Assembly (NCBI GenBank): GCA_030765065.1 | Contig: CM060978.1 | Span: forward strand, 57,688,421-57,752,420 | Origin: Deroplatys truncata | Lineage: Eukaryota; Arthropoda; Insecta; Mantodea; Mantidae | Reading direction: 5' to 3' | DNA length: 64,000 nucleotides | The notes under the pieces: generated by a model | Database searches by the model: none | What the model saw: the letters and a program-made list of their open reading frames with translations, nothing else | What the model was told of the DNA's origin: nothing | Shown: positions 3,802 to 60,129 of the stretch, in pieces | Numbering within the stretch: the first letter of the stretch is position 1 | Layout of the letters: each line of letters begins with the position of its first letter | Made by a program: the position numbers and the translations under genes

Positions 3802-4777
3802 TGAGGTAGTATTTTTAATACTTAAAAAGTATTTCAGTCTAATTATATAATATAAAATATAATAACAGCACCCTTAAAGCAATATTTGTATAATATAATA
3901 TATAAAATGTATGTAGCAGTCATTTCATTAATGTTTATATTATTATGTACATGTTTAATAGTGTTATTTGAATGTATTATGTAATAATAATGTAGGAGCT
4001 GTGAGAATATAGGTCAAAAGTTGCTAACAATGAGGTAACCTTGAGGCAATAATGAATTGGAAAGTTAGTAATTATACTATTATTTCTTGGAAACAGTAAT
4101 GTAATTTTTTAAAAACTGTTTATAAATAGCCAATCAACAACTAGAAAGGCTAAAAGTTAAATAAAAATATTCTATTGGAGTAGGATTAGCCAATCAGAGA
4201 CTTGAAACAGATGAAATTTGCAAATTCAGGCGGTGGAAGTCAGTCGCCAGTAGAAAGCGTTCCTAACTGGACGCGAGACGCGTCCTCGAGAAGTTTAATA
4301 CATATTCAGTGTGAGACGAAAGTGCATTATGGCGAGAATATTATAAAGCTTCGGTGTTAAAAAGTGCAAGTAATTAATAAATAATCTGACAGCTTTCTAT
4401 ATAAGTGAAGTGTTATTTAGTCGTATGAAGGATTAATAAATGGAGTGAAGGAAAAATTATAATCTGTGTAAGCCTACATTCTTTAGCCGTATCACATCCT
4501 GTTAAGAGAAACATGTTTCTACAAATTAATACTGACGCAGCGGAGGCAAACGTTAATGTATATAATATTTAAAGAAACATTAAAATACAAAAATGAAAGT
4601 AAAGTTGGGGCGAAGGCCACCGGAAAGTAAAGTTGGGGCGAAGACCACCGGAAAATGAACATTGGGGCGAAGGCCACCGGAAACTTTGTATCCAAACGTG
4701 GGGCAGTTAGTTCATCAAGTTTTGGCTCTCAGCTGCAGCAATACAATACAACTCCTCAAAAAATTAACACTTCTTCA
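3802..4777 (+). mobile_element. Solo LTR, family SL, copy A
   Basis: 976-bp insertion with TG...CA ends (TGAGGTAGT ... CTTCTTCA) and an exact 4-bp target duplication AGGC (3798-3801 and 4778-4781). It has promoter-like content in this orientation: TTTATAAATAGCC near 4120, two CCAAT boxes (AGCCAATCA), and TTAATAAATGG as a possible polyadenylation signal. The 3' part has three near-identical units GGGGCGAAG-CCACCGGAAA at about 4607-4683, then primer-binding-site-like words (AAACGTGGGGCAG). TG...CA ends with a 4-bp duplication fit a Ty3/gypsy-type LTR; this is inference, since no internal gag-pol is present. Confidence 0.75.
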
Positions 4778-11126: not shown

Positions 11127-11900
11127 TTTCGGATGTGATACGTTCACATGACCTTCTCCACCCTTTATCGTTTATTAGTGTGTATTGGAATATTCTTATT
11201 AAAGCTTATTTTTCTATCTGCTTTACTTTAACCCAAATAAACTTTTGCAGAAATAGCTGCATTACACATTTCGTTATAGACACAATTGGAATAGTGACAG
11301 TGAAATGTTTAAGAAATGGACGCTATATGCTGACCATAAAATTTCGTACTGTTTCCATGGCGAACCATTACTAACGGATATCTCAGAAATGGCTTATGCT
11401 ACAAAAAAGGTTACTTGGGATAAATTGTGTGTTTTAAAGAGATCTACAATTTTTGTGCCGTACGTTTTCGTCTATCGCTTAACGTTTACCAGGTATACAA
11501 GCTTATACAAAGTTCCTTCCAAAGAAGAGGACTTCATAGGCTATTCCCAGAAAATTCAAGATATATATTTTATTTGTAATGTAAATATCTTGAATATATG
11601 TTCACTTTTTAGAAAATAAAAAAGTGTCGAAACAGTTTTCCATGTATAGGGTTGTTTAGGGTGGTGATATTTTCTTGAAAATATTCGTGAGGCATGTTAA
11701 ATGCCTAGTTTGGTAATTATCCGACTTTTCGATTTTGAGTTATTCTGTTCACAGACAGACACACACACAGGATATTTTTAAATGCTTTTTTATATTGAGC
11801 GACCTCAAAATGTGCATTTGCGGTGAAATCTCGACATCGAACTTTTGGGTGGAATACAATACTTTCCCTACTTACTATACGTAGTTGAGAACGTAAAAAG
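11127..11900 (+). repeat. Trn repeat, type c, nearly complete
   Basis: Divergent subtype: CGGATGTGATACGTTCACATG start, AAACTTTTGCAGAAATAGC, AAATGGACGCTATATGCTGAC, GAAGAGGACTTCATAGGC, a short CA tract at 11754-11769, and end TATACGTAGTTGAGAACGTAAAA. This subtype is the usual host of nested insertions elsewhere in the window, so it is older. Confidence 0.8.
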
Positions 11901-16468: not shown

Positions 16469-17685
16469 CACTATGTGATCAAAAGTATCCGAACCGCCCC
16501 CCCACAAACATACGTTTTTCTTCTTAGGTGCATTGTGCTGCCCCCTACTGCCTGGTACTCATTATCCGCGATCTCAGTAGTCATTAGACAACGTGAAACA
16601 GCAGAATGGGACGATCTGTGGAACTCACGGACTCTGAACGTGGTCAGGTGTTTGGGTGTCAGTTGTGTCGGAAGTCTGTAGGCGAGATTTCCACACTCCT
16701 AAACATCCCTAGGTCCACTGCTTCTGATGTGATAGTGAAGCGGAAACGTGAAGGGACACGTACAGCACAAAAGCGAACTGGCCGACCTCGTCTGTTGACT
16801 GAGAGAGACCGCCGACAATTGAAGAGGGTCGTAAAGAGCAATAGGCAGACATCTATCCAGATTATGACACAGGAATTCCAAACTGCATCAGGATCCCCTC
16901 TAAGTACTATAGCAGTTAGGTGTGAGGTGAGTAACCCTGGAATCCATGGTCGAGCGGCTGCTCATAAGCCACACATCACGCAAGAAAATGTCAAACGACG
17001 CCTCGCTTGGTGTAAGGAGCGTCAACATTACACGATTGAACAGTGACCAAACGTTGTGTGGAGTGACGAATCACGGTACACAATGTGGCAATCCGATGCC
17101 AGGGTGTGTGTATGGCAATGCCCGGTGAACGTCATCTGCCAGCGTGTGTAGTGCCAACAGCGAAATTCGGAGGTGGTCGTGTTATGATGTGGTCGTGTTT
17201 TTCTTGGAGGGAGCTTGCACCCCTTGTTGTTTTGCGTGGCACGATCACAGCGCAGACCTACATTGATATTTTAAGCACCTTCTTGCTTCCCACTGTTGAA
17301 GAGCAATTCGAGCACCTGTTCATATTGCATGGGCTGTGGCAGAGTGGTTACACGACGATAACATCCCTGTAATGGACTGGCCTGCACAGAGTCCTGACTT
17401 GAATCCTATAGAACACCTTTGGGATGTTTTGGAACGCCGGCTTCGTGCCAGGTCTCACCGACCTACATCGATATCTCTCCTCAGTTCCGCACTCCGTGAA
17501 AAATGGGCTGCCATTCCCAAGAAACCTTCCAGCACCTGATTGAAAGTATGCCTGCGAGAGTGAACGATGTCATCAAGGCTAAGGGTGGGCCAAAACCATA
17601 TTGACTTTTAGCATTACCGATGGAGGGCGCCACGAACCTGTACGTCATTTTCAGCCGGGTGTCCGGATACTTTTGATCAGTAGTG
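16469..17685 (+). mobile_element. Tc1-like DNA transposon, full length, inactive
   Basis: 1217-bp element with terminal inverted repeats CACTATGTGATCAAAAGTAT (left) and the complement of ATACTTTTGATCAGTAGTG (right), flanked by TA on both sides (16467-16468, 17686-17687). It encloses one transposase pseudogene. Ends, target site and length are all typical of Tc1. Confidence 0.9.
16606..17604 (+). pseudogene. Tc1-like transposase pseudogene
   Basis: DNA-binding half intact for 146 codons: MGRSVELTDSERGQV, a helix-turn-helix (VGEISTLLNIPRSTASDVI), the AT-hook-like GRPR at about codons 59-62, and a second helix region ending HGRAAAHKPHIT. A TGA stop at 17044-17046 follows. The catalytic half continues in the same frame: WSDES (first Asp, 17065-17067), then, after shifts, KFGGGRVMMW. 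The segment carrying the second Asp (DNAPVH in relatives) is largely deleted around 17325-17340. It ends with WPAQSPDLNPIEHLWD (Glu at 17411-17413) and KAKGGPKPY plus stop. Catalytically dead. Confidence 0.9.
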
Positions 17686-19454: not shown

Positions 19455-20930
19455 ATGGTTTTTTTTCCTAATTTAATATCTTATGACGCATTACTTCAAT
19501 TATTTCAGTTTAAAAGCTTATCTCATAGAAGGAATCGTCACTTGCTACTTTTCGTTTACAAATTATTAAGTATTAAGATAGATGATTGGGACCTAAGACA
19601 ATTAATGTACTTTTATGTTCTCAATATTACACCAAACTGTTTTCGTAATACCTTCTTTATTCCAAGAGTCAACACTGATGTATATACATGTTCTCCCATG
19701 CTAATAATGCAATCCTTATATAATGAATTGCATACTTAAGGTAGTATTTTTTAACACTTAAATGATATCAGTCTAATTATATAATATAAAATAAATTAAC
19801 AGCCCGCCTTAAAGCAATATGTATATAATATAATGTATAAAGTGTATTTTGTCATTGTATTATGTTTATTTTACGTGTATAAAAATGTTATGTGAATGTA
19901 TTACGTAGTTTAACAATATAGGAGCTGTGAGAATAGAAGCAAGCTGCCTTCCGTAGCAAACAGAATTACAAAGTAGAAGCTGGAAGATAACCTTGAGGCA
20001 ATAATAAATTAGAAGGTTTAAAAAAGCTACTAAGAGTTCTTGGAACAATAATAATGTAATATTTAAAACAATTTATAAATAGCCAATCAACAACTAAAAA
20101 GGCTAAAAGTTAAACAAATGTATTCTATTGGAGTAAGATTAGCCAATCAGACATTTGAAGTAGGGGAAACGTACAAATTCAGGCGGGAGACGCTACAAGG
20201 AAGCGCAACTAGGAATTTTGTTTTCGAACTGGTTCAGTGTGAGACATAAACATTCATTGCGTGAGAATAATATAATGTTTACGTGTTAAAAGTGCAATTA
20301 ACAACAATCTCAAGCTATATAGTAGGATATATCAGTGAAGTGTTGTTTAATCGTGTGTGAAGGATTAATACACAAAGTACAATATAATTATAATTTGTGT
20401 AAGGCTTCATTCTTTAACCGTACCACCCCTGCTAAGAGATACGTGCTTTACAAATTACTAATGACGCAGCTGAGGTATATATATTTAAATAAACACTTAA
20501 CGTACGTGGGGCGAACATTCCTAGAAACAATCTGCCACAAATTGGCATCCATTACGTTCTTGGTCTAAAACAGCTTCAAATTGGCTCCCATACGTGGGGC
20601 TGCAACTACCTCATACTTAACTATTGATATATTCAATATGAATCCCAACAATTTCGCTTTATTCTGTGATCATTTACTACAAGTTATACATTGGCTAATT
20701 TATCATGTACAAAATAACCAATTTTTTAATTTTTATATTATTTTGTGTAATTTGTGTTATTTGTTTTGCTTTATTTTATTTTGTAACTTTTTGTCATGTT
20801 CGATTGATTGCATTATGTGTTCATTTCTTTGTTGAGTTGTAATTGTAAGAATATTGTATTTAATTAAGTCAATATTGTAATTGGGGAAACTTGTAATGTT
20901 CACAAAATAAAATAGAGAAGAATCCAAGTG
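19455..20930 (+). pseudogene. LINE ORF2 C-terminus, split by solo LTR
   Basis: 19455-19736 encodes SHRRNRHLLLFVYKLLSIKI, VLNITPNCFRN, FFIPRVNTD and MQSLYNEL, matching the C-terminal tail of Jockey/BS-like LINE ORF2 proteins (pattern RR-x-LL-F-YKLL-G-I, then F-P-x-R-T, then YN). The frame resumes after the inserted solo LTR at 20614 with YLTIDIFNMNPNNF, one base out of frame. The AT-rich rest up to about 20930 is presumably the LINE 3' end. RT and other upstream domains are absent. Confidence 0.6.
19737..20613 (+). mobile_element. Solo LTR, family SL, copy B
   Basis: 877 bp, exact 4-bp target duplication TACT (19733-19736, 20614-20617), inserted in the LINE remnant. The first dinucleotide is TA instead of TG; the last is CA (ACTACCTCA). 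It has the family's ATTTATAAATAGCC and AGCCAATCA boxes. The 3' array has two clear primer-binding-like units, GCCACAAATTGGCATCCATT and GCTTCAAATTGGCTCCCATA followed by CGTGGGGC. Confidence 0.75.
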
Positions 20931-24933: not shown

Positions 24934-25903
24934 TGAAGAAGTTTATATTTTTGTTGTAGGAGTTATTTGCCCCACGCTTTGGGAGCCAATTTGAAGTAAG
25001 GTGTTTGCTTCACGTATGGAAAGCCGATTTTGAAGTAGGAGTTGTATTGCTGTTCAACTGTTGGGGAGCCGAACTTGAGGTAGTTGCAACCGCACGTATG
25101 GTACGCGGTAGCCATCGTCACAAGTTTAAAAATAATAACTTTGTAATTTGACTGTTTCTTTAAATATTATATATTTATGCTTGCTTCGGCTTTATTGTTA
25201 GAGACACGTTTCTCTTTGCAGGGTTGTGATGCGACTGAAGAATGTAGGGTTACACAGATTATAATTTTTCTTCACTCCGTGTATTAATGCTTGACACGAT
25301 TTAAATAACACTTCGCTGATATAGAGACCTGTGAGATTCTTTTGTTAATTGCTTGCACTTTTTAAACATGTACACTATTTTCTCACACAAAATACGTATT
25401 TAATTTCTCAAGGACGCATCTCGCGTCTGATTAGTAACACTGTCTGCTAGCAACTGACCTGATATCTACCTCCTAAATATGTAAATTTCTGTATTTCAAG
25501 TCTTTGATTGACTAATCCTAGTCCAATAGAATACCTTCATTTAAGTAAAGCTTTTTATGGTTGTTGATTGGCTATTTTCTAAACTGTCACAAAGTTTACA
25601 TAATTGTTGCTCCAATAATGACTAGTAGTATTATTAACTTTCTTACTGTTTATTGCCTCAAGGTTACCTCACTGTTAGCAACTTTTAAGCTATTATTCTC
25701 ACAGCTCCTACATTATTAAATTACGTAATACATTCACATAACATCACTACACATATATATATAATAATATAAACATTTACAATGACTGTAATATACACTT
25801 TTTATATAATGTTACATACACATATTGCTTCAAGGCGGGCTGTTATTGACTTTATATTATATAATTAGATTCAAATCATTTAAGTGTTAAAAATGCTGCC
25901 TCA
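24934..25903 (-). mobile_element. Solo LTR, family SL, copy C
   Basis: 970 bp on the reverse strand, exact AAGT target duplication (24930-24933, 25904-25907), inside the RT region of the Penelope-like element. Removing it restores the frame INNIQDF-NFTISKEDLL. The 3' array has three units starting CTACCTCAAGTTCGGC, CTTCAAAATCGGC and CTTCAAATTGGCTCCCAAAG, then a terminal CTTCA. Confidence 0.8.
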
Positions 25904-26811: not shown

Positions 26812-28796
26812 ATGGATAAAACTGGCCATCGTTATATGATCAATTTGATGTAGGTTATTTTGTTGTATTGTTATTTGCCCCACGCTTTGGGAGTTGGTTT
26901 GTTGCTGCTACGTATGGAAAGTCAGTGTGTAGAAGATGTATTATATTTCGACTGTTGGGAAGCCGAACTTGAAGTAGTTGCAACCGCACGTATGGTAAAA
27001 AGTTTCCGGTAGCCTTTGCCTCAAGTTTAAAAATATTAACTTTGTAATTTGACTGTTTCTTTAAATATTATATGTTTATGTTTGCCTCGACTGCGTCAGT
27101 ATTTATATTTTTTAGAGGCATGAATGTCTTAACAAGGAGTGGTGCAGCTGAATAATGTAGGCTTACACGGATTATAATTTTACTTCACTTCTTTTATTAA
27201 TGCTTGTCACGATTTAAATAGCACTTCACTGATATAGAAAACTGTGAGATTTTTTATTAATTACTTTCACTTTTTAACACGCAAAATTTTTTTGGTCTCA
27301 CATGAAATACGTATTAAATTTCTCGAGGACAGATCTCGCGTCTGGTTAGTAACGCTGTCTGCTAGCAACTGACAACTGCGTTTGTAAATTTTGCTATATA
27401 TCAGTTTCTGATTGGCTAATCCTACTCCAATAGTATACCTTCGTTTAAGTAAAGCTTTTTCTGGTTGTTGATTGGCTATTTACAAACTGTCTCAAATTTA
27501 CATTATTGTTTCTTCAATAATGACTAGTAGCATTTTTAAACTTTCTTACTCATTATTGCCTCAAGGTTACCTCATTGTTACCTCATTGTTGGCAAATTTT
27601 AACCTATTATTCTCACAGCTCCTACATTATTAAATTATGTAATACATTCACATAACATTATTACACATGTATACAATAATATAAACATATACAACGACTG
27701 TAATTTACACTTTTTATATATTGCTACATACACATGCTTTAAGGCGGGCTGTTATTGAATTTATATGTTATATAAGTAGACTGAAATCATTTAAGTGTTA
27801 AAAATACTGCCTCAAATACTTTCATTGGAAAGGTCTTAGTGCAACTAATATTAAAGCTGAGCTAGATTCTACTCCGGGGGAGTCTGCACCTTCGTTTACA
27901 ACAGTAAAATATTGGGTGGCAGAGTTTAAACAAGGCCGTAGGAGCTGCCAGGACGAACATCGCAGTGGTGGACCAAATGAGGTGACCACGCCAGAAATTG
28001 TGAAGAAAATCCACAAAATGGTATTAGATGACCTCGACTGAAAGTGCGTAAGCTAGCAGACATAGTAAGCTTTTCACAAAGTGCCGTACATCGCACACTG
28101 ACTGAAAATTTAGACATGAGAAAGCTGTGCGCATGATGGGTGCCGCGTTTACTCACAATGGAACAAAAGATGTTTCAGTCGAGGGTTTGGCGATATTTTG
28201 CGTCGATGCATAACCATGGATAAAACATGGATCCATTACTTCACACCTGAGACGAAGGAACAGTCAAAATAGTGGATTGAAAGGGGAAAATCGGCTCCAA
28301 AGAAGGCGAAGATAGTTCCATCTGCAGGCAAGGTCATGGCGTCGGCTTTTTGGGATGCACGTAGAATAATTTTCATTGATTATTTTCAAAAAGTAAATGC
28401 AAACAATGGCGAGTATTATGCAAACTTATTGCAGCGTTTTAATGATGAAATCAAGCAAAAACGGCCGCATTTAGCGAAAAAGAAGGTTATGTTTTATCAA
28501 GACAATGCACCAGTTCACACAGCCATTATCGTCACGGTCAAAAGCAATGAGTTAATTTTCGAATTGCTCCTTATGCACCCTATTCTCCAGACTTAGTCAC
28601 CTCTGGTTATTTTCTATTTCCAAAGTTCAAGAAATGGCTTGGCGGTAAAAGATTTGCCAACAATGAAGAGGTGGAGTTAGCAGTTGATGGCTATTTCGCG
28701 GAACTCGGCGGTTCTCACTATAAACAGGGTATCGAAGCTATTGAACATCGCTGGCAAAAGTGTATCGAGCTGAAAGGAGGATTTGTAGAGAAATAA
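26812..28796 (+). pseudogene. Mariner transposase pseudogene (copy 1)
   Basis: The start codon at 26812 (MDKTGHRYM) is followed after ten codons by the inserted LTR. Coding resumes at 27815: YFHWKGLSATNIKAELDSTP, VKYWVAEFKQGR, HRSGGPNEVTTPEIVKKIHK, then a frameshift near 28038 and KVRKLADIV. First catalytic block ITMDKTWIHYFTPE (the usual DETW is DKTW), a TAG stop in the next block (about 28270), second Asp in FYQDNAPVHTA (28495-28525). Third block YSPDLVTSGYFLF: the third catalytic Asp of DD34D is Gly. It ends VEK plus TAA at 28794-28796. Inactive. Confidence 0.85.
26846..27814 (-). mobile_element. Solo LTR, family SL, copy D
   Basis: 969 bp on the reverse strand inside the mariner. Flanks AATT (26842-26845) and AATA (27815-27818), a 4-bp duplication with one change. 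Ends TGAGGCAGT ... CCTACATCA in LTR orientation. PBS-like units CTACTTCAAGTTCGGC and ACTCCCAAAGCGTGGGGC at 26880-26990. Confidence 0.75.
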
Positions 28797-29846: not shown

Positions 29847-30295
29847 GGCGGGCAGTTAGCCTTCTAGGTCCATCCTTGTAACCACCCGCTTCGTCGTACA
29901 CATAGAGACCCTAGCGCATAGCAACTGGATCTTCTACTTCGTGCCGTGATGATGGCATTAGGGTGCCGTCCAGTCTAATTGCCGCTTTCATATAGAAAGG
30001 CGGACAGCTAGCCTTCTAGGTCTCATCCCTGTAACTACCCACTTCGTCGTGTCCACAGAGACCCCAGAGCATAGCAACCGGATATTCTGCTTGGTGCCGT
30101 GAGATGGCATTAGGGTGCCGTCCAGTCTAACTGCTTCCATACAGAAAGGCAGAGACTTAGCTCTCTAGGTCTCATCCCTGTAACCATGCCATCTTGCTTT
30201 GTCACGTGTCCACACAGACCCTAGCGCATAGCAACTGGATCTTCTACTTCGTGCCGTGCAGATTGCATTAGGGTGCCGTCCAGTCTACATGGTTT
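29847..30295. repeat. Three tandem units of about 150 bp
   Basis: Units 29847-29998, 29999-30147 and 30148-30295. Each has a GGC(G)G-CAG-TAGC start, TTCTAGGTC, GTAAC-ACCC, AGAGACCC, GCATAGCAAC-GGAT, GTGCCGTG and ATTAGGGTGCCGTCCAGTCT. About 80 percent alike by eye. GC-richer than the surroundings. Function unknown. Confidence 0.85.
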
Positions 30296-31999: not shown

Positions 32000-32206
32000 T
32001 GGAATTAATTGTTCCTCCACACAAGTTGGACAGGGTTGGAAAGGTAGAATCAGGTGACCGAAAAATTCAATGCCATAGCCGGGATTTGAACCACGGATCT
32101 CCCGGTCTTCGTCCGGTTGCTCTAACCACTGAGCTACCACGGCAACATGCCTGATTCTACCTTTCCAACTTTCCAACGGCTTATGTGAAAGAACAATTAA
32201 TTCCAT
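32000..32206 (-). mobile_element. tRNA-like sequence inside a long inverted repeat
   Basis: Reverse-strand tRNA-like core (about 32074-32146): TGGTAGCTCAGTGGTTAGAG (A box), an acceptor stem that pairs with G-U allowed, GTGGTTCAAATCC (B box). The T stem and anticodon loop are poor (C where U33 belongs), so it is a pseudo-tRNA or SINE head. It is bracketed by a perfect 20-bp inverted repeat, CCTGATTCTACCTTTCCAAC (32150-32169) against 32035-32054, and by an outer one, GAACAATTAATTCCA (32192-32206) against 32000-32014. Confidence 0.7.
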
Positions 32207-36744: not shown

Positions 36745-38015
36745 CGAGGGCTGTCCCTGAAGTACCCGACCTAACAAAGAAAACACAAACATTTTGGGGA
36801 AAAAAAAAACATATTTATTTCTCTACATAGTCTCCTTTCAGCTCGATACACTATTCCCAGCGTTGTTCAATAGCTTCGATACCCTGTTAATAGTGAGAAC
36901 CCGCGTAGTTCTACAAAATAGCCATCAACTGCAGACTCCACCTCTTCATTGTTGGCAAATCTTTTACCGGCAAGCCATTTCTTCAACTTTGGAAACAAAA
37001 TAATCAGAGGGGGCTAAATCTGGCTAATAGGGTGCATGAGAAAGCAATTCCAACTTTAACCTATTGATTTTGGCCATGGCGATAGTGGATGTGTGAACTG
37101 GTATACTGTCTTGAAACAAAAGTTTCTTTTTCGATAAATTCGGCCGTTTCTGCATCATTCCATCATTCAAACGCTGCAATAAGTTTGCATAATACTTGCC
37201 ATTGACTGATTTTCCTTTTTGAAGATAATCGATGTAAATTATTCCACGCGCATCCCAAAGAACTGACGTCATGACCTTGCCTGTCATCGTCTTATTTGGA
37301 GCCGATTCTCCTCTTTCAATCCACTGTTTTGTCTGTTCCTTCGTCTCAGGTGTGAAGTGATGGACCCATGTTCCATCAATGCTTATGAATCGACACAAAA
37401 TCTCTGCTTTATTGCAGCAAAACATCTCCAAACACTCGACTGAAACACCCTCACGAAGCTGCTTTTGTTCTATTGTGAGTAAACGCGGCACCCATCTTGC
37501 GCGCAGCTTTCTCATGTCCAAGTTTTCAGTTAGTATGCGGTGTACAGCACTTTTTGAAATGCCTACGATGTCTGCTAGCTCGCGCAATTTCAGTCGACGG
37601 TCATCCAATACCATTTTGTGGATATTTTTCACAACTTCTGGCGTGGTCGATCATTGCAATGTTCGTCTTGGCAGCTCGTATGGCCTCGCTCAAAATCTGC
37701 CACCAAATATTTTACTGTTGTAAACGAAGGAGCAGACTCCCCCAGAGGAGAATCTAGCTCAGCTTTTATATTAGTTGGACTAAGACCTTTCAAATGAAAG
37801 TATTGTATCACATAACGATGGCCAGTTTTATCTATGTTTACAAACTCGCTGAGAAAGTTCACTGTTAATGCCTGTCAAACAATTACTAAACAACGTAGCA
37901 TCGTCAAACTTCAAACTTAAGCTTTATAAGTGTGACACTTTCAACCATAGTCATTTGTTTGAATACAACAATCGCTGTATATATGTCAGGTCAGGTACTT
38001 CTGGGACTGCCTTCG
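36745..38015 (-). mobile_element. Mariner (DD34D) copy 2, full length
   Basis: 1271 bp, inverted ends CGAGGGCTGTCCCTGAAGTA (left) and TACTTCTGGGACTGCCTTCG (right), TA duplicated at 36743-36744 and 38016-38017. Host continuity across the site proves the insertion. Confidence 0.95.
36815..37835 (-). pseudogene. Mariner transposase pseudogene (copy 2)
   Basis: The start codon is ATA (37833-37835) where copy 1 has ATG. The N-terminal helix-turn-helix segment GHRYVIQYFHLKGLSP... runs to about 37640, where a frameshift occurs. A 200-codon open stretch follows (37632-37024): KIHKMVLDDRRLKLREL, ISKSAVHRIL, SIDGTWVHHFTPE (first Asp kept, DETW now DGTW), QDSIPVHT (second Asp kept, next residues changed). 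A TAG stands where YSPDLAPSD should begin, but LAPSDYF with the third Asp follows. Frame is lost again before the TAA at 36815-36817. Less decayed than copy 1, still inactive. Confidence 0.9.
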
Positions 38016-39923: not shown

Positions 39924-41162
39924 TGAGATTTGTATAGTGCTTACGTAATATGTTTTTACGTAAATTATTAGAACTTGAAGATCTTATATTGTGCTGCTTT
40001 TGTTTTGTTTGGTTACATAATTTTAACTGCCCCACGTATGGGAGCCAATTTGAAGTGGTCATTATTAATGTTATTTATTTAACATTAATTGTAGCCCCAC
40101 GTTGTGGTAGCCAATTTGTGACGGTATTATTTGTTGCATTTATTTATTGAGCCCCAACATTTGGGAGCCAATTTGCGATGGTAAATTTATAATGTTATTT
40201 GTGTATGTGTGTTTACTTCATGTGGTGAAGCCATTTTTGTGACGTGATTCTTTGTTAGGTTTGTAGCTCCATCTGGTGTTAGCTATTTGCGGCAGTATTA
40301 GTTTTTGTTTGAAAGAATGTTACTTTTATTTTTATTTAATTTTGTTTCACTGTCCTCCGGCTAGCTATGATTTTTTTGGGTCGAGCACTTCTGTTTATAC
40401 AGGTTTTGTAAACGGAAAGGAATCTTTTATCCAAAGATAACACTGATGAAGGAATTTGTTTTACACTTTTATTGTCGAACACAGTCACTATCACATTTAC
40501 ACATTGATCTAGACAATCGCCAAACTGAAACTGTTATAACAACTTCTTACTGATCACTTTTAATCCATGTACTTCAACCTTTTGTATAATTAACTTTACC
40601 ATACTTGAGATTTTTCATAACTCTTATACGCGTAACTTGCGAATCGATAGCCGACGTGTAATATTTCTGCTGGACTGAAGGCGACGTGTATCATACAAAT
40701 ATTTTCGACGAACTGACGGGAATGCGACGTGTAATGTACAAAGAATTTTGATGAACTGACGGGGTCTATCTCTAACCTAGCTCTTTTATACTCATACACC
40801 CGATATGCCTAAAGATTATAACTGAACTGCAATTGGCTAATAAAACGCGCCAACATTAGCGTCTATTTTTATATCCAATGAAAATTATGAATACATATGC
40901 TCTAGGGAAATGTTCCAGAAGATTCTAAAGGAAAACGCGCCAACATTACGTAACTTCCTCGTCTCTAATAATAATAAACAGCTCACCCCCTCGCTGCATT
41001 ATTGCACGCTATTATTGTCAGTTTCAGTAAGGCAGTATAAACTTACTTCCCAACAATAATTACAATCAACAAACATCTCAAATCAATGTCACATAATAAT
41101 GCATATTCATACTATAATCACTCTTTACATTTAAATAATTTGTGATACAAATGACTGCATCA
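39924..41162 (-). mobile_element. Solo LTR G (second LTR family)
   Basis: 1239 bp, TG...CA ends and exact AAAC duplication (39920-39923, 41163-41166). Read on the reverse strand: perfect heat-shock element (TTC-CC/GAA pattern, 40913-40925), TATA box TATAAAAGAG (40781-40790), tandem units of about 42 bp ending CACGTCGC (40651-40763), GACAATAAAAGTG as a polyadenylation signal, then at least four PBS-like units between 40300 and 40015, e.g. CTTCAAATTGGCTCCCATAC followed by GTGGGGC. No gag-pol. Confidence 0.8.
40651..40763 (-). repeat. Tandem units in the LTR leader
   Basis: Roughly three units of 30-42 bases, with CCGTCAGTTC(A/G)TC at the start and TACACGTCG near the end on the reverse strand, just downstream of the TATA box of LTR G. 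Confidence 0.65.
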
Positions 41163-41475
41163 AAACACACCACACAAACTATTTCCAAAATATTCGTTAT
41201 TAGTGTTTGGAATTATCAATACTTGCCATTCTTTTAATTTACTATCATTTTTCAGTTGTTTCTCGCCTCGTCATGGGAAGAGTATGGAAGTTTAAGGTCC
41301 AGTTCTTAAACATTTGACTATCACTATTCCCTTTGTATCTAACGAAATATGTAATGAAGATATTTTCGGAAAGGTTTATCTCGACTAGAATAAAACAGAT
41401 AGGAAAATTAACATTCGTAAGAATAATTTAGAGGTTAGAGAAAGTCATATGGATGTAACACATTAGATTTTTTAA

Positions 41476-45590: not shown

Positions 45591-47349
45591 TGTTTTATAC
45601 ACATGACTGTCTCTACCTTTTACTAGTGGGTATGTAAACTATTCTTAAGAAAGATTATTTTTCTACTTCATTATAATCCAGGTAAACCTTTTGAAAATAG
45701 CTGCATTATACATTTTGTTATAGATACAAAGTCAGGCAGTATTTATAACACTTAAATAATTTCAGTCTAATTATGTAACATATAAATTCAATAATAGCCT
45801 GCCTTAAAGCAATATGTGTATGTAACAATACATAAAAAGTGTATATTACAGTCATTGTATATGTTTATATTATTGTATACATGTGTAATAATGTTATGTG
45901 AACGTATTACGTATTTAATAATGTAGGAACTGTGAGAAATAGGTCAAAAGTTGCTAACAATGAGGTAACCTTGAGGCAATAATGAATTTGAAAGTTTAAC
46001 AATGCTACTTGTGATTCTTGGAAGCAATAATGTAATTTTTGTGACAGTTTATAAAATAGCCAATCAACAACCAGAAAAGCTTTAGTTAAATGAAGGTATT
46101 CTATTGGTCTAGGATTAGCCAGTCAGAAACTAAAAATGAAGCAAAATTTACAAATTCAGAAGTCAGTTGCTTGTGGACAGTGTTCCTAACCGGACGCGAG
46201 ATGCGTCCTCGAGAAATTTAATACGTATTTTGTGTGAGACAAAAATAGTTTACATGTTAAGAAGTGCAATTAATTAATAAAAAAATCTCACAGCTATCTA
46301 TATCAGTGAAGTGTTATTTAAATCGTGTCAATCATTAATAAAAGGAGTGAAGTAAAATTATAATCTGTGTAAGTCTACATTCTTCAGTCGCACCACTCCC
46401 TGCTAAGAAATATATGTCTCTAAAAATATAAATACTGACGCAGCCGAGGCAAACATAAATATATAATATTTAAAGTAACAGTCAAAACTACAAAGTTAAT
46501 ATTTTTTAAACATCTTTGGGGCGAAGCCTACCGGAAAAGTTTTACTATACGTGCGGTTGCAACTACTTCAAGTTCGGCTCCCCGACTGTGCAAACATAAT
46601 ACATCTTCAAATTGGCTTCCAAAGCTTGGGGCAAATAACAGTATAACAAACCGTCTTCAAAAGGAAACAGTGATAGTCAAATATTTAAGAACTGGACCCT
46701 ATATGCTGGCCTTAAAATTCCATACCGTTCCCATGACATCCCGAGAAGCACCTGAATGTTGACAGGACTTGGAATGATTGACAAAGTGTTTTACAATTGG
46801 AACCATTAATAACGGATATCTCAGAAATGGCTCATGCCACAAAAAAGTTATTTAGAGTAAATTATTTCCTTCAAAGAGTATGTTTTCGTCAATCGCTTAA
46901 CGTTTACAGTTATACAGGATTATATATAACTCCTACCGAATAACGAGGTCTTCAGAGACTATTACCAGAAAATACAAGATATGCATTTTATTTTTCAGGT
47001 AAATATACAAAATATATGGGATTTTAATCAAACCGTTAAGGCCATTTTTTAGAAAATAAAAAATTTCGAAAAATGTTGCATCTAAAGGGTGGTAAGATGA
47101 AGGGATTTTCTTAAAAATCTTGGTGTCTCGTCTTCGGAAGATACTGAACTACAATACTAAGTTTGGAATCTATGCGACTTTTCCTTTTTGAGTTATGCTG
47201 TTAACAGAGACGCACACACTGATCTTTTTCTAAAACTGCTTTTTTGGGGTTTAGGGGATTTCGAAATATATATTTCTGGTGAAACTTTGTTTCGAATTTT
47301 AAGCGAAATGCAACACCTCCTCTAGCTTACGTGGTAAGTTAAGTAAAAA
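45591..47349 (+). repeat. Trn repeat, type c, split by solo LTR E
   Basis: 45591-45731 plus 46660-47349 form one type-c copy. The joined site GATACAAAG-GAAACAGTGATAG matches the uninterrupted type-c copy near 53828 (GATACAAAGAGAACAGCG). Confidence 0.8.
45732..46659 (+). mobile_element. Solo LTR, family SL, copy E
   Basis: 928 bp, exact AAAG duplication (45728-45731, 46660-46663). First bases TCAGGCAG (TG mutated to TC), last CGTCTTCA. TATA-like TTTATAAAATAGCC, CCAAT, GGACGCGAGATGCGTCCTCG (a 20-base near-palindrome) near 46192, and two PBS-like units at 46570-46640. Confidence 0.8.
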
Positions 47350-47362
47350 CAGGTCACAAGTT

Positions 47363-48381
47363 TGAGGCAGTATTTTTAACATTTAAATGATTTCAGTCTA
47401 ATTCTATAATATATAAATTTAATAACAGCCCGCTTTAAACCAATATTTGTATGTAACAATATATAAAAAGTGTATATTACAGTCATTGTATATGTTTATA
47501 TTATTGTAGCCATGTGTAATAATGTTATGTGAATATATTACGTAATTTAATAATGTAGGAGCTGTGGGAATAATATGTTAAACGTTGCTAACAATGAGGT
47601 TACCTTGAGGCAATAATGAGTTTGAGAGTTTAAGTGTTACTTGTGATTCTTGGAAGCAATAATGTAATTTTAGTGACAGTTTATAAAAATAGCCAATCAA
47701 CAACCAGAAAAACAGCTTTAGTTAAATGAATATTTTATTGGATTAGGAATAGCCAATCAGAGACTTGAAATACAGAAACTTACAGGTTTAGGCGCTAGAA
47801 ATCTTGTCAGTTGCCTGCAAACAGTGTTCCTAACCGAACGCGAGACACATCCTCGAGAGATTTAATACGTATTCGTGTGAGACGAAAATAGTTTTAGTGT
47901 TAAAAAATGTAATTAATTAATAAAAAGAATCTCACAGCTCCCTATATCAGTGAAGTGTTATTTAAATTGTGTCAAGGATTAATAAATGTAGTGAAGTAAA
48001 ATTATAATCTGTGCAAGCCTAAATTCTTGTCGCATCACAATCCTGCTCAGAGAACCGTGTCTCTAACGAAAATACTGACGCAGCGAATATTTAAAGAAAC
48101 AGTCAAATTACAAAGTAAATATTTTTTTTAAACTTGGGGCAAAGGCCACCTTAAAGTACATTTGGGGCGAAGGCTACCGGAAACTTTCTACTATACGTTC
48201 GGTTGCAACTACTTCAAGTTCGGCTCCCCAACAGTTGAACTACAATACAACTCCATCAATACAAACTACTTTAAACTGACGCCCAAAGCGTGGTGCAAAT
48301 AACGTAACAAACCACATTACTTCAAATTCGCTCCCAAAGCCTGGGGAAAATAACAATAACGTAAACAAATCATCTACTTCA
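47363..48381 (+). mobile_element. Solo LTR, family SL, copy F
   Basis: 1019 bp, flanks AGTT (47359-47362) and AGGT (48382-48385), one mismatch. The best-preserved array: GGGGCAAAGGCCACC, GGGGCGAAGGCTACCGG, then units beginning CTACTTCAAGTTCGGC (48208), CTACTTTAAACTGACGCCC (48266) and TTACTTCAAATTCGCTCCC (48318), and the LTR end CTACTTCA. Each unit repeats the LTR's own terminal CTTCA. Confidence 0.8.
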
Positions 48382-55279: not shown

Positions 55280-57098
55280 TGTGTGTCTGTGAACAGCATA
55301 ACTCAAAAACGAACAGTCGGATAAACACCAAACTTGGTATTTAGGTTCAGTATCTTCCGGAGATGCGACACGAAGGTTTTCAAGAAAATCCCCCCACCGC
55401 AGACTACCCTTTACATGGAACATTTTTCGAAACGTTTAATTTTCTCAAAAATGGCTCTAACGATTTTGATGAAAATATCATATGTTTAAGATAATGTCAT
55501 GAGAAATGAAACGTATATCTCGAATTTTCTGGGAATGTCTCCAAAAGTATTCTTCATTGTGAACGACTTTTGCATAACTGGTAAACCATAAGAGATAGAC
55601 AAAATTTTACTACACAAAAAATGTAGATCACGTTGAAATACACCACTTGTGTCTTATACATTTCTTTTTTTGAGTGAACCGTTTTCGAGATATTGCTTGT
55701 TGTTTCCTTAAATTTTCCAATACTTGTACTTTTTCTCAAATTCGTTATTCATTTTTACTTTCTCTACTACGTATAGTAAGTAGGGGAAGTATTGCATTCC
55801 ACCCAAAAATTCGATACCGAGATTTCACCGGAAATACATGTTTTGAGACCTCCTGAATCCAAAAAAAGCATTTTTGGAAACATGTCCGTGTGTGTGTCTG
55901 TGTGTCTGTGTGTGTGTGTCTGTGTGTGTGTGTCTGTGTGTGTGAACAGCATAACTCAAAAACGAACAGTCGGATAAACACCAAACTTGGTATTTAGGTT
56001 CAGTATCTTCCAGAGATGCGACACGAAGGTTTTCGAGAAAATCCCCCCACCCCAGACTACCCTTTACATGGAACATTTTTCGAAAATTTTAATTTTCTCA
56101 AAAATGGCTCTAACGATTTTGTTTAAAATATCATATGTTTAAGATAATGCCATGAGAAATGAAATGTATATCTCGAATTTTCTGGGAATGTCTCCAAAAG
56201 TATTCTTCATTGTGAACGACTTTTGCATAACTGGTAAACCATAAGAGATAGACAAAATTTTACTACACAAAAAATGTTGATCTCGTTAAAATACACAACT
56301 TATGTTATATACATTTCTTTTGTTGAGTGAACCGTTTTCGAGATATTGCTTGTTATTCCCTTAAATTTTCCAATACTTATACTTTTTCTCAAATTCGTTA
56401 TTCATTTTTTTATGTCCTGGACTTGCAAAGAGAATGGAATTCGACACATAGCAACCAGCGTTAAAATATTTGACCATCGCTTAAAAGCTACCATATTCCC
56501 CTTGCATCTACAAGAAAATTAGCAATAAGATTGACATCTCGATATCTCGATTAACATAAAGCATATGGAGAATAGGCGTTTGTAAAAATAGATTGTACAA
56601 GAGTAGAGAAAGTCATGTGAGTGTAACACATCAGATTTTTTTATGTCCTGGACATGCAAAGAGAATGGAATGCGCCACATAGCAACCAGCGTTAAAATAT
56701 TTGACTATCGCTTAAAAGCTACCATATTCCCCTTGCATCTACAAGAAAATTAGCAATAAGATTGACATCTCGATATCTCGATTAACATGAAGCATATGGA
56801 GAATATGCGTTTGTAAAATTAGATTGTACAAGAGTAGAGAAAGTCATGTGAGTGTAACACATCAGATTTTTTTATGTCCTAGACATGCAAAGAGAATGGA
56901 ATGCGCCACATAGCAACCAGCGTTAAAATATTTGACTATCGCTTAAAACCTACCATATTCCCCTTGCAACTACAAGAAAATTAGCAATAATATTGACATC
57001 TCGATATCTCGATTAACATGAAGCATATGGAGAATAAGCGTTTGTAAAAGTAGTTTGTACAAGAGTAGAGAAAGTCATGTGAGTGTAACACATCAGAT
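55077..57098 (-). repeat. Trn repeat, type b, third level, with extra 5' modules
   Basis: 55077-55755 is the 3' part. It carries an expanded compound GT tract, 55211-55289, the longest in the window. Its 5' module resumes at 56637. Modules 56637-56868 and 56869-57098 are near-identical tandem copies, so one extra module has been added. Confidence 0.8.
55756..56636 (-). repeat. Trn repeat, type b, innermost complete copy
   Basis: Intact ends, GT tract 55887-55943. Lies in the TTATTCATTTTT run of the third-level copy. Its own 5' module (56404-56636) plus the two after it makes three head-to-tail modules of about 232 bp. Confidence 0.9.
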
Positions 57099-57478
57099 TT
57101 TTTTGAATTCAGAGGGTCTCGAGGGTGAATTCTCGGTATCGAATTTTTGGGTGGAATGCAATACTTCCCCTACTTACTATACGTAGTAGAGAAAGTAAAA
57201 ATGAATAACACTTGCATGTGAAGGGTAGTTTGGGTTTTGGGGATCTTGTTGAATACCTTCATGTCGTATCTTTAGTTGATGTTGAAACTAAATACCAAGT
57301 TTGATGTTTATACGACTTTTCGTTGTTGAGTTATGCTGTTTACAGACACACACATACACCGATCGTTTTATAACGACGCTTTTTTAGGATTCAGGGGCTT
57401 CAAAACATGTATTTTCGGTGAAATCTCGCGTTGGAATTTTTGGATGCTTTACAATATCTTCTCTAGAGAAACTTATCA

Positions 57479-57745: not shown

Positions 57746-60028
57746 TTACTTTCTCTACTACGTATAGCAAGTAGGGGAAGTATTGTATTCCACCCAAAAA
57801 TTCAATACCGAGATTTCACCGGAAATACATGTTTTGAGCCCTCTGAATCCAAGAAAAGCATTTTTGGAAACATATCCGTGTGTGTCTGTGTGTGTGTGTG
57901 TGTGTGTGTGTCTGTGTGTCTGTGAACAGCATAACTCAGAAACGAACCGTCGGATAAACACCAAACTTAGTATTTAGGTTCAGTATCTTCCACAGATGAG
58001 ACACGAAGGTTTTCAAGAAAATCCCCCCACACCAGATTACCCTTTACATGGAACATTTTTCGAAAATTTTAGTTTTCTCAAAAACGGTTCTATGGATTTT
58101 GATTAAAATATCGTATGTTTAAGATATTTTCATGACAAATGAAATGTATATCTTGAATTTTCTGGGAGTGTCTCCAAAAGTGTTCTTCATTGTGAACGAC
58201 TTTTGCATAACTGGTAAACCATAAGAGATAGACAAACCTTTACTGCATAAAAATGTAGATCGCGTTAAAATACACAATTTATGTCAGATACATTGTTACT
58301 TTCTCTACTACGTATAGTAAGTGGGGGAAGTATTGCATTCCACCCAAAAATTCGATACCGAGATTTCACTGGAAATACATGTTTTGAGACCTCCTGAATC
58401 CAAAAAAAGCATTTTTGGAAACAAGTCCGTGTGTGTGTCTGTGTGTGTGTCTGTGAACAGCATAACTCAGAAACGAACCGTCGGATAAACACCAAACTTA
58501 GTATTTAGGTTCAGTATCTTCCACAGATGAGACACGAAGGTTTTCAAGAAAATCCCCCCACACCAGATTACCCTTTACATGGAACAGTTTTCGAAAATTT
58601 TAGTTTTCTCAAAAACGGTTCTATGGATTTTGATTAAAATATCGTATGTTTAAGATATTTTCATGACAAATGAAATGTATATCTTGAATTTTCTGGGAGT
58701 GTCTCCAAAAGTGTTCTTCATTGTGAACGACTTTTGCATAACTGGTAAACCATAAGAGATAGACTAACCTTTACTGCATAAAAATGTAGATCGCGTTAAA
58801 ATACACAATTTATGTCAGATACATTGTTACTTTCTCTACTACGTATAGTAAGTGGGGGAAGTATTGCATTCCACCCAAAAATTCGATACCGAGATTTCAC
58901 TGGAAATACATGTTTTGGAGACCTCCTGAATCCAAAAAAAGCATTTTTGGAAACATGTCCGTGTGTGTCTGTGTGTGTGTGTGTGTGTGTCTGTGTGTGT
59001 GTGTCTGTGAACAGCATAACTCAAAAACGAACAGTCGGATAAACACCAAACTTGGTATTTAGGTTCAGTATCTTCCGGAGATGCGACACGAAGGTTTTCA
59101 AGAAAATCCCCCCACCCCAGACTACCCTTTACATGGAACATTTTTCGAAACGTTTAATTTTCTCAAAAATGGCTCTAACGATTTTGATGAAAATATCATA
59201 TGTTTAAGATAATGTCATGAGAAATGAAATGTATATCTCGAATTTTCTGGGAATGTCTCCAAAAGTATTCTTCATTGTGAACGACTTTTGCATAACTGGT
59301 AAACCATAAGAGATAGACAAAATTTTACTACACAAAAAATGTAGATCACGTTGAAATACACAACTTGTGTCATATACATTTCTTTTTTTGAGTGAACCGT
59401 TTTCGAGATATTGCTTGTTGTTTCCTTAAATTTTCCAATACTTATACTTTTTCTCAAATTCGTTATTCATTTTTTTATGTCCTAGACTTGCAAAGAGAAT
59501 GGAATGCGCCACATAGCAACCAGCGTTAAAATATTTGACTATCGCTTAAAAGCTACCATATTCCCCTTGCATCTACAAGAAAATTACTAATAAGATTGAC
59601 ATCTCGATATCTCGATTAACATGAAGCATATGGAGAATAGGCGTTTGTAAAAATAGATTGTACAAGAGTAGAGAAAGTCATGTGAGTGTAACACATCAGA
59701 TTTTTCTGGTTGAGTGAACCGTTTTCTAGATATTGCTTGTTATTCCCTTAAATTTTCCAGTACTTATACTTTTTCTCAAATTCGTTATTCATTTTTTTTA
59801 TGCCCTAGACATGCAAATAGAATGGAATGCGCCACATAGCAACCAGTGCTTAAAATATTTGACTATCGCTTAAAACCTACCATGCTCCCCTTGCATCTAC
59901 AAGAAAATTAGCAATAAGATTGATATCTCGATATCTCGATTAACATGAAGCATATGGAGAATAAGCATTCGTAAAAATAGTTTGTACAAGAGTAGAGAAA
60001 GTCATGTGAGTGTAACACATCAGATTTT
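57746..60028 (-). repeat. Trn nest with tandemly duplicated 3' part
   Basis: 57746-58295 and 58296-58826 are near-identical 3' parts (both with AACGAACCGTCGGATAAACA and CCACAGATGAGACACGAAGG), broken at the same place (GTCAGATACATTG). 58827-59705 is a complete type-b copy. 59706-60028 resumes the first copy at GGTTGAGTGAACCG. So one copy was interrupted at its ACATTTTTTTTGTTGAG run and its 3' part was then duplicated. 60029-60129 unassigned. Confidence 0.85.
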
Positions 60029-60129
60029 TTACATTCTTCGTCAAGAGCTTCTTGCAAAATTTAGTTCCTTGATTGAAACAACAGGGAAGCAATACTTGCA
60101 CCATTTGAATTTTGAATATATGTAATTTT

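Follow-up and report, generated by a model that had tools for sequence, protein, structure and literature searches.

The LTRs analysed here are best explained as those of Ty3/gypsy elements, perhaps of an Osvaldo-like sort, in which the border between the LTR and the primer binding site (PBS) is not fixed along an array of primer sites, the units of this array being gained by strand switching (probability of about 0.77). At the level of sequence, direct evidence that the border moves comes from exact PBSs lying in tandem, from units outside the LTR, from a single site that terminates the LTR in some elements but is internal in another, and from 5' and 3' LTRs of unequal extent within one element. 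Textbook reverse transcription has one PBS, one U5 end and a fixed LTR/PBS border, whereas here the border appears to be selectable.

Solo LTRs of the window and their tails

The initial annotation had placed six solo LTRs of one family, SL, in the 64-kb stretch of DNA analysed here (the window), and all six were recovered by alignment, with a conserved start and a TCA at the 3' end. They are 877-1019 bp long and begin with TGAGG(C/T)AG in four copies, with TAAGG in copy B and with TCAGG in copy E. The 4-bp target site duplications (TSDs) that had been taken to fix the true LTR end are perfect in only four of the six copies (A, B, C and E) and agree at three of four bases in D and F. For copies D and E, paralogous empty sites reading across the joint are present in the window (90% for D and 79% for E). 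The LTRs and the tail units located in the window are as follows.

3802..4777, + strand: SL copy A, solo LTR, TSD AGGC/AGGC
from about 4595, + strand: tail array of copy A, with 28-bp units at 4595-4683 and the PBS tail AACGTGGGGC at 4695-4704
19737..20613, + strand: SL copy B, solo LTR, TSD TACT/TACT, shortest tail among the six
20579..20600, + strand: last unit head of copy B, AATTGGCTCCCATACGTGGGGC, within the 27-nt identity to LTR G
24934..25903, - strand: SL copy C, solo LTR, TSD ACTT/ACTT, PBS-like units at 24969-24988, 25007-25027 and 25063-25077
26846..27814, - strand: SL copy D, solo LTR, TSD TATT/AATT (3/4), unit at 26877-26896, empty-site paralogue at 37725-37881
39924..41162, - strand: LTR G, second family, 1239 bp, TSD GTTT/GTTT
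40029..40171, - strand: three PBS-like units of LTR G, at 40151-40171, 40094-40114 and 40029-40048
45732..46659, + strand: SL copy E, solo LTR, TSD AAAG/AAAG, units at 46569-46583 and 46613-46632, empty-site paralogue at 11203-11359
47363..48381, + strand: SL copy F, solo LTR, TSD AGTT/AGGT (3/4)
48131..48381, + strand: tail array of copy F, units u1 and u2 of the GGGGC-AAAGGCCACC type, u4 from 48217
48277-48296 and 48328-48347, + strand: PBS-like units u5 and u6 of the copy F tail

The tails of the six SL copies consist of units made up of TTCA, AAT, a tRNA-Lys-like PBS and a spacer. In the six-copy alignment, copy B ends at ACTACCTCA, precisely where copies C to F run on into AGTTCGGCT. The tree of the LTR bodies has the form (A,B,(C-F)), with a support of 100 for C-F, and the last bases of copy A resemble those of copy C. 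The number of units varies between copies, as had been claimed, but by our present reading it is equal in C, D and F.

LTR G, missing from the initial annotation, is a seventh LTR of the window with PBS-like units. A placement at 39976-41176 with the TSD AGTT was rejected in favour of 39924-41162 on the basis of the start of a full-length relative, the AGTT being a chance match; when aligned, LTR G and the LTR of the full-length element at C1:34631160 begin at the same point. In a comparison with SL that used the slightly shifted ends of G (39976-41176), the units alone were common to the two families at E < 0.01, the best match being 27/27 nt with copy B (E 6e-9). What these two otherwise unrelated LTRs have in common is their integration end, the spacer AAT and the PBS-like stretch, a pattern more indicative of function than of a minisatellite.

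The 20-mer unit core TGGCTCCCAAAGCGTGGGGC was found, with at most three mismatches, at seven places in the window, versus none in 100 shuffles; five of these places lie within SL copies, two in LTR G and none elsewhere in the window. The claimed resemblance of the units to a tRNA-Lys PBS holds for gapped matches, but an ungapped Lys PBS is absent from the window even with up to three mismatches, and the window units, of 19-20 nt, match it only with a gap of 1-2 nt. The PBS is assigned here to a general 3' end of tRNA-Lys(CUU) rather than to one taken from this genome. In a gapped comparison with 21 general tRNA 3' ends, tRNA-Lys(CUU) was the best in six of the seven LTR tails, and a different tRNA as the source of the PBS was rejected on these grounds; in tail E, Asp outscored Lys (22 vs 19). 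The Lys score was reached by none of 300 shuffled tails in six cases and by 1/300 in E, and any of the 21 tRNAs reached it in 10 (A), 1 (D), 18 (E) or 0 (B, C, F and G) of 300 shuffles. Looser unit patterns were mostly no more numerous in the window than in shuffles and are no evidence on their own.

Exact primer sites across the genome

The exact 24-mer TCAAATTGGCGCCCAACGTGGGGC, comprising TCA, AAT and the 18-nt Lys PBS, was found at 1,720 places in the genome (868 + 852), and its reversed control at none genome-wide. Together with the position of the PBS after the LTR end in full-length elements (see below), this bears out the initial proposal that the units are composed of an LTR end and a PBS. 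The first 100 places were listed, all of them on C1; five tandem clusters with a spacing of <150 bp account for 11 of these. We read 11 loci around exact PBS places, three picked as tandem and eight being the first listed. Three of them (L055, L057 and L059) are LTR tails with 2, 2 and 1 exact PBSs, respectively; a purine-rich leader of the GAAGCGACCAGGAAAGG type follows in L056 and L060-L065, and a leader of its own in L058. The unit adjoining the leader is the exact 18-mer in L056, L062, L063 and L064; it is altered in L058, L060/L061 and L065, where the exact unit lies one step upstream.

An SL LTR with 84% likeness to copy F (L049) contains three exact PBSs; the units that hold them have spacers of two kinds and recur almost without change. 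Its flanks do not match as TSDs (AACG/TCCG), so it was not counted as a clean insertion, and the locus looks rearranged. By eye, a tRNA-derived SINE-like insert at about 923-1226 of this locus lies within a PBS-like unit, with TACGTGGGGC repeats on both sides.

Local amplification was seen at two other places. L060 (C1:9533086) and L061 (C1:9535812), which were taken as one duplicated locus, are identical over 551 bp and lie 2,726 bp apart, as a local tandem duplication across the LTR/PBS junction. L050 (C1:181480900-181484400) is a local tandem array with a period of about 1486 bp and about 97% identity, each unit of which comprises the 3' part of the LTR, units, an exact PBS, the leader and a gag-like start, so that the LTR/PBS junction is amplified in a satellite-like manner.

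A 14-purine pattern for the polypurine tract (PPT) yielded 11 places with differing tracts; eight were cut out and the four that were read each had a perfect TSD, and these loci were rejected as full-length elements, being insertions into purine tracts. Pattern scans of viral contigs and of genome contigs gave no matches. The derivation of the oldest SL unit from an absorbed leader was tried and not adopted: the L056 leader beat the shuffles (0/1000 reaching the copy A score), which is suggestive of such an origin, and for the other eight of the nine leaders 53 to 979 of 1000 shuffles reached the score.

Nested LTR ends among SL copies

SL solo LTRs are very dense, with six in the 64-kb window and 12,808 first-look candidates in its own genome (4.29 Gb), 40 of which were scored; 39 further stretches were taken. 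A TCA end with a perfect 4-bp TSD was present in 36 of 50 LTR-spanning SL copies, versus a mean of 4.3 and a maximum of 10 when TSDs were exchanged among copies (200 trials); the remaining 14/50 lack this combination. The SL LTRs of this sample and of the window measure 876-1053 bp.

Many SL solo-LTR ends coincide with unit borders. The nested-end test covered 35 SL ends, with L022 (end at 1169) left out and with the chance TSD end of copy F (854) replaced by hand with 1019 (TSD 3/4). The terminal 16-mers of 15/35 copies recur inside other copies, these matches not being independent since 8/15 are variants of one sequence, and 20/35 have no internal match. A PBS-like head comes next at 106/130 of the internal places, compared with 40/79 internal TCA and 56/395 internal CA in general. 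For instance, L013, L026 and L039 all end in AATACAAACTACTTCA, which is internal in L019, L020, L015 and L018, where it is followed by AATTGACG, AATTGGCG, AATTGTCG and AATTGGCG, respectively; in L006 the sequence after AATACAAACTACTTCA, AATTATTGC, is not PBS-like. Among twenty 10-kb SL loci, inspected without pair-by-pair comparison, no LTR pair of one element was recognised.

Position of the PBS in full-length elements

Both LTR ends were read in six full-length elements, and TSDs in two of them (CAGT and TACA). As the initial annotation had anticipated, a Lys PBS directly follows the LTR end in these relatives; it is exact in four and has two extra nucleotides in the other two, on C14 and C16 (TGGCGCCATCAACGTGGGGC and TGGCGCCACCAACGTGGGGC), and the C14 form also occurs in L075 and L077. 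The related full-length elements have paired LTRs (1133 and 1068/1187 bp), a PBS after the 5' LTR and, in the two elements read for it, a PPT before the 3' LTR; the last is AAAAGGGGG in C1:953186-961799 and only AGTGGGGCATA in C1:34631160-34635731.

The element C1:34631160-34635731 is flanked by CAGT/CAGT, and its LTRs are identical at 1092/1093 positions of the compared stretch. Its border 21-mer has two places in the genome at up to one mismatch, which are its own two LTRs. The 3' LTR ends at CCACTCTCA, and the 5' side continues with AAT and an exact PBS. A second TTCA, AAT and exact PBS lies 98 bp further on, in the leader, and the LTR ends before the first PBS.

The second TSD-flanked element (C1:953186-961799, TACA/TACA) is related to SL, matching SL copies at 67-73% in parts of the first 430 bp, and bears directly on the earlier suggestion that the number of units could differ between the 5' and 3' LTRs of one element, which it does here. 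The two LTRs are identical at 1086/1113 columns, 33 of which lie beyond the LTR end. Past CAACTATCTCA, the 3' LTR continues with AAT, an exact PBS, TTAACATACAAA and a 77-nt repeat of the LTR end (74/77), and then comes the TSD. The first part of this extension corresponds to the 5' leader, up to 12 nt past the PBS, and the second to the LTR end; the joint between them is a 7-nt microhomology, TACAAAC, common to the leader and to the 3' LTR's own U5. The 5' LTR lacks 4 nt at the U5 TACAAAC site, and the 5' leader has a second, altered PBS-like unit (TGGCGCGCAACGTGGAGG) downstream of the first PBS.

Four further elements, on C1, C10, C14 and C16, contain the border motif CAACATACAATTTGYTCTCKCA in two copies on one strand, 3.13-3.26 kb apart, and were read at their border stretches alone. 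The LTR ends at the motif in the C1 and C10 elements and 2 nt further on in that of C14. In the C16 element both LTRs are one unit longer and end at ACAGCTTCA, the motif site being internal; the C1 element has an extra unit, with an exact PBS, in its leader rather than in the LTR. The search with CAACATACAATTTGYTCTCKCA also gave three places (L075-L077) without a partner.

These borders weigh against the explanation that comes closest to the preferred one, although we consider it unlikely: a fixed LTR end, with a tail that is an ordinary U5 minisatellite changing by slippage or unequal exchange, and a PBS likeness that is the relic of one old duplication of the LTR/PBS border. Tandem duplication clearly occurs, as the three 28-bp units of copy A and the likeness of its last bases to those of copy C indicate, and in L049 adjacent units have spacers in common and 96% identity over 79-83 bp. 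However, a minisatellite does not account for units beyond the LTR in full-length elements, for a site that terminates the LTR in three elements but lies within it in a fourth, or for a 3' LTR containing a PBS and 12 nt of real leader. Two outcomes that the initial annotation regarded as adverse to its proposal, a PBS for another tRNA in the relatives and a minisatellite lacking homology to the sequence downstream of the LTR, were not observed.

Altered units and remaining alternatives

Most units inside old LTRs have 1-2 nt inserted and a changed G5, and these changes exceed those at the other free positions, in counts made with a biased search pattern. Among 34 distinct non-exact forms, collected with a search pattern that demanded the head GGC and the tail CGTGGGGC and therefore biased the position counts, G5 is changed in 24, and insertions follow PBS positions 4 and 7-10. 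Such changes should hinder priming, and the T-arm-complementary CGTGGGGC is still recognisable in two families, as would be expected if the PBS-like units were kept for a function, for example as decoys or as extra sites holding tRNA-Lys, to which the primer activation signal of HIV-1 may be likened, with the moving LTR ends as a by-product. We hold this to be improbable: the conservation of GGC and CGTGGGGC is partly an artefact, because the search pattern demanded both, common descent from a single variant unit would look no different, and the functional reading is itself drawn from sequence comparison.

Mixed LTR ends might also have arisen from assembly errors or from later gene conversion between elements in this repeat-rich genome, with L049 apparently rearranged and local tandem duplications at L050 and L060/L061. 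Two elements nevertheless have perfect TSDs directly at their ends, and differing borders recur in the four elements with the CAACATACAATTTGYTCTCKCA motif, making this very improbable. Chance, or an unrelated repeat that is merely PBS-like, would fit the lack of ungapped matches in the window and the 18/300 shuffles in which some tRNA reached the score of tail E, but is dismissed in view of the 1,720 exact copies (control 0) and of their placement between LTR end and leader in full-length elements.

Classification and comparison with known systems

A region inside C1:953186-961799 (L078) gave matches to RVT_1 (3.7e-26) and RT_RNaseH_2 (3.5e-14), in this one element. Its best solved chains were 4ol8, which we take to be the Ty3 RT/RNase H, followed by Ty3 Gag-Pol 7q5b (E 8e-33 and 5e-32). 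The predicted RT thus assigns the SL-related element, on the evidence of this single copy, to Ty3/gypsy (Metaviridae). Among the solved chains compared, a set lacking a BEL reference, the best match of the RT was Ty3. In the window itself, a Pfam search of 141 ORFs (at least 70 aa) for gag and pol returned transposase and helix-turn-helix models only. In Pao/BEL elements such as Pao of Bombyx, the LTR contains variable tandem copies of the R region; there the tandem unit is R and not the PBS, and the RT found here is closest to Ty3.

The elements are perhaps of an Osvaldo-like sort, a likeness known from LTR length, TSD and PBS. In the mosquito members of the Osvaldo lineage of Ty3/gypsy, LTRs measure about 1-2 kb, TSDs are mostly of 4 bp and the PBS is always that of tRNA-Lys (PMC3286476). 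The elements described here share the tRNA-Lys PBS (by the general tRNA end), the 4-bp TSD and LTRs of about that length (SL 876-1053 bp, G 1239 bp), although many SL LTRs fall below 997 bp, the reported Culex minimum for the lineage. An unusually conserved stretch of 29-30 nt across the LTR/PBS border in three mosquito Osvaldo elements from two species (PMC3286476) resembles the 27-nt identity between SL and LTR G; tandem units of LTR end and PBS, or a movable border, are not described in the excerpt of that report. In cqgypsy_1 of Culex, extra sequence at the LTR/PBS border is flanked by a 26-nt duplication of the LTR (PMC3286476), but there the insert is a dimer of whole tRNAs, attributed by its authors to a transposition-like insertion, whereas PBS units are repeated here. 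Sireviruses have multiple polypurine tracts beside the 3' LTR and highly conserved LTR/PBS and PPT/LTR junctions (PMC2829016); it is the plus-strand primer site that is repeated in them, not the PBS, and the excerpt describes no change of the LTR end. In HIV/SIV, the PBS sequence of the progeny is inherited from either the tRNA or the RNA genome (PMC4549124), which in that source, as excerpted, concerns the sequence of the PBS and not its position. Our finding stays within the LTR retrotransposons, and no description of tandem LTR-end and PBS units or of a movable LTR/PBS border was found in the open-access PMC literature (supplements excluded).

Proposed mechanism

In the model that we favour, of an unfixed border with units gained by strand switching, a single array of units would run through the 3' part of the LTR and on into the leader, each unit with its own integration end (TTCA or similar), an AAT spacer and a tRNA-Lys primer site. 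Minus-strand synthesis could start at any of several sites, and the site used would set the LTR end; upstream sites would become fossils inside the LTR and downstream sites would stay in the leader, so that the LTR would lengthen or shorten by whole units. The initial annotation had proposed that the LTR grew at its 3' end by absorbing its own end and PBS. The LTR-end/PBS units and the difference between 5' and 3' LTRs agree with this, but simple one-way growth does not account for the data: the border can move either way, since the leader, beyond the LTR, has units as well, and absorption alone is insufficient, since the units inside old LTRs are mostly inexact.

New units may arise when nascent minus-strand strong-stop DNA, primed at the PBS, jumps at a short microhomology from U5 into the leader behind the PBS of the same or of a second RNA, and recopies the PBS and the LTR end; ordinary tandem duplication of units probably contributes as well. 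One trace of such a switch was found, in C1:953186-961799, where pairing at the inner PBS during the second-strand transfer could have produced the short 5' LTR. By analogy with HIV/SIV, the PBS that is used may be renewed from the tRNA and unused ones may decay. This fits only partly, as the border PBS is exact in four of the six elements and has a 2-nt insertion in two; these insertions, and the extra nucleotides and changed G5 of most units in old LTRs, should not persist if the primed site is renewed from tRNA-Lys. A tRNA-Lys isodecoder, a shared origin in one variant or selection that disfavours priming at unused sites may lie behind the altered forms.

We think it rather probable that the RNA has several working primer sites, each with an integrase end, and that the choice of tRNA-Lys site at each replication sets the length of the LTR. 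If so, the copying of primer sites would be an engine building new LTR sequence, and LTR tails would record past priming events. A selectable border would explain changes in LTR length by whole units and offer a route for both gain and loss of U5 sequence, with a bearing on the origin and growth of LTRs and on the placing of LTR ends by annotation tools. Young elements with two adjacent exact primer sites would provide a natural system for the study of primer choice.

Other features of the window

Remnants of Mariner-type and Tc-type transposases lie at 37024-37650 (- strand) and 16597-17046 (+ strand), respectively; the flanks of SL copy D, when joined, match 37725-37881, near the mariner-like remnant. 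A tRNA-Phe(GAA), at 32070-32144 on the - strand (Rfam tRNA, 52 bits), is either a real gene or a repeat-derived copy. Tandem arrays were found at 56404-57104, 59388-60029 and 29857-30287, with periods of 231, 324 and 153 bp, and the consensus units of the 231- and 324-bp arrays have a stretch in common around GGACATGCAAAGAGAATGGAATGC (AGACATGC in the second).
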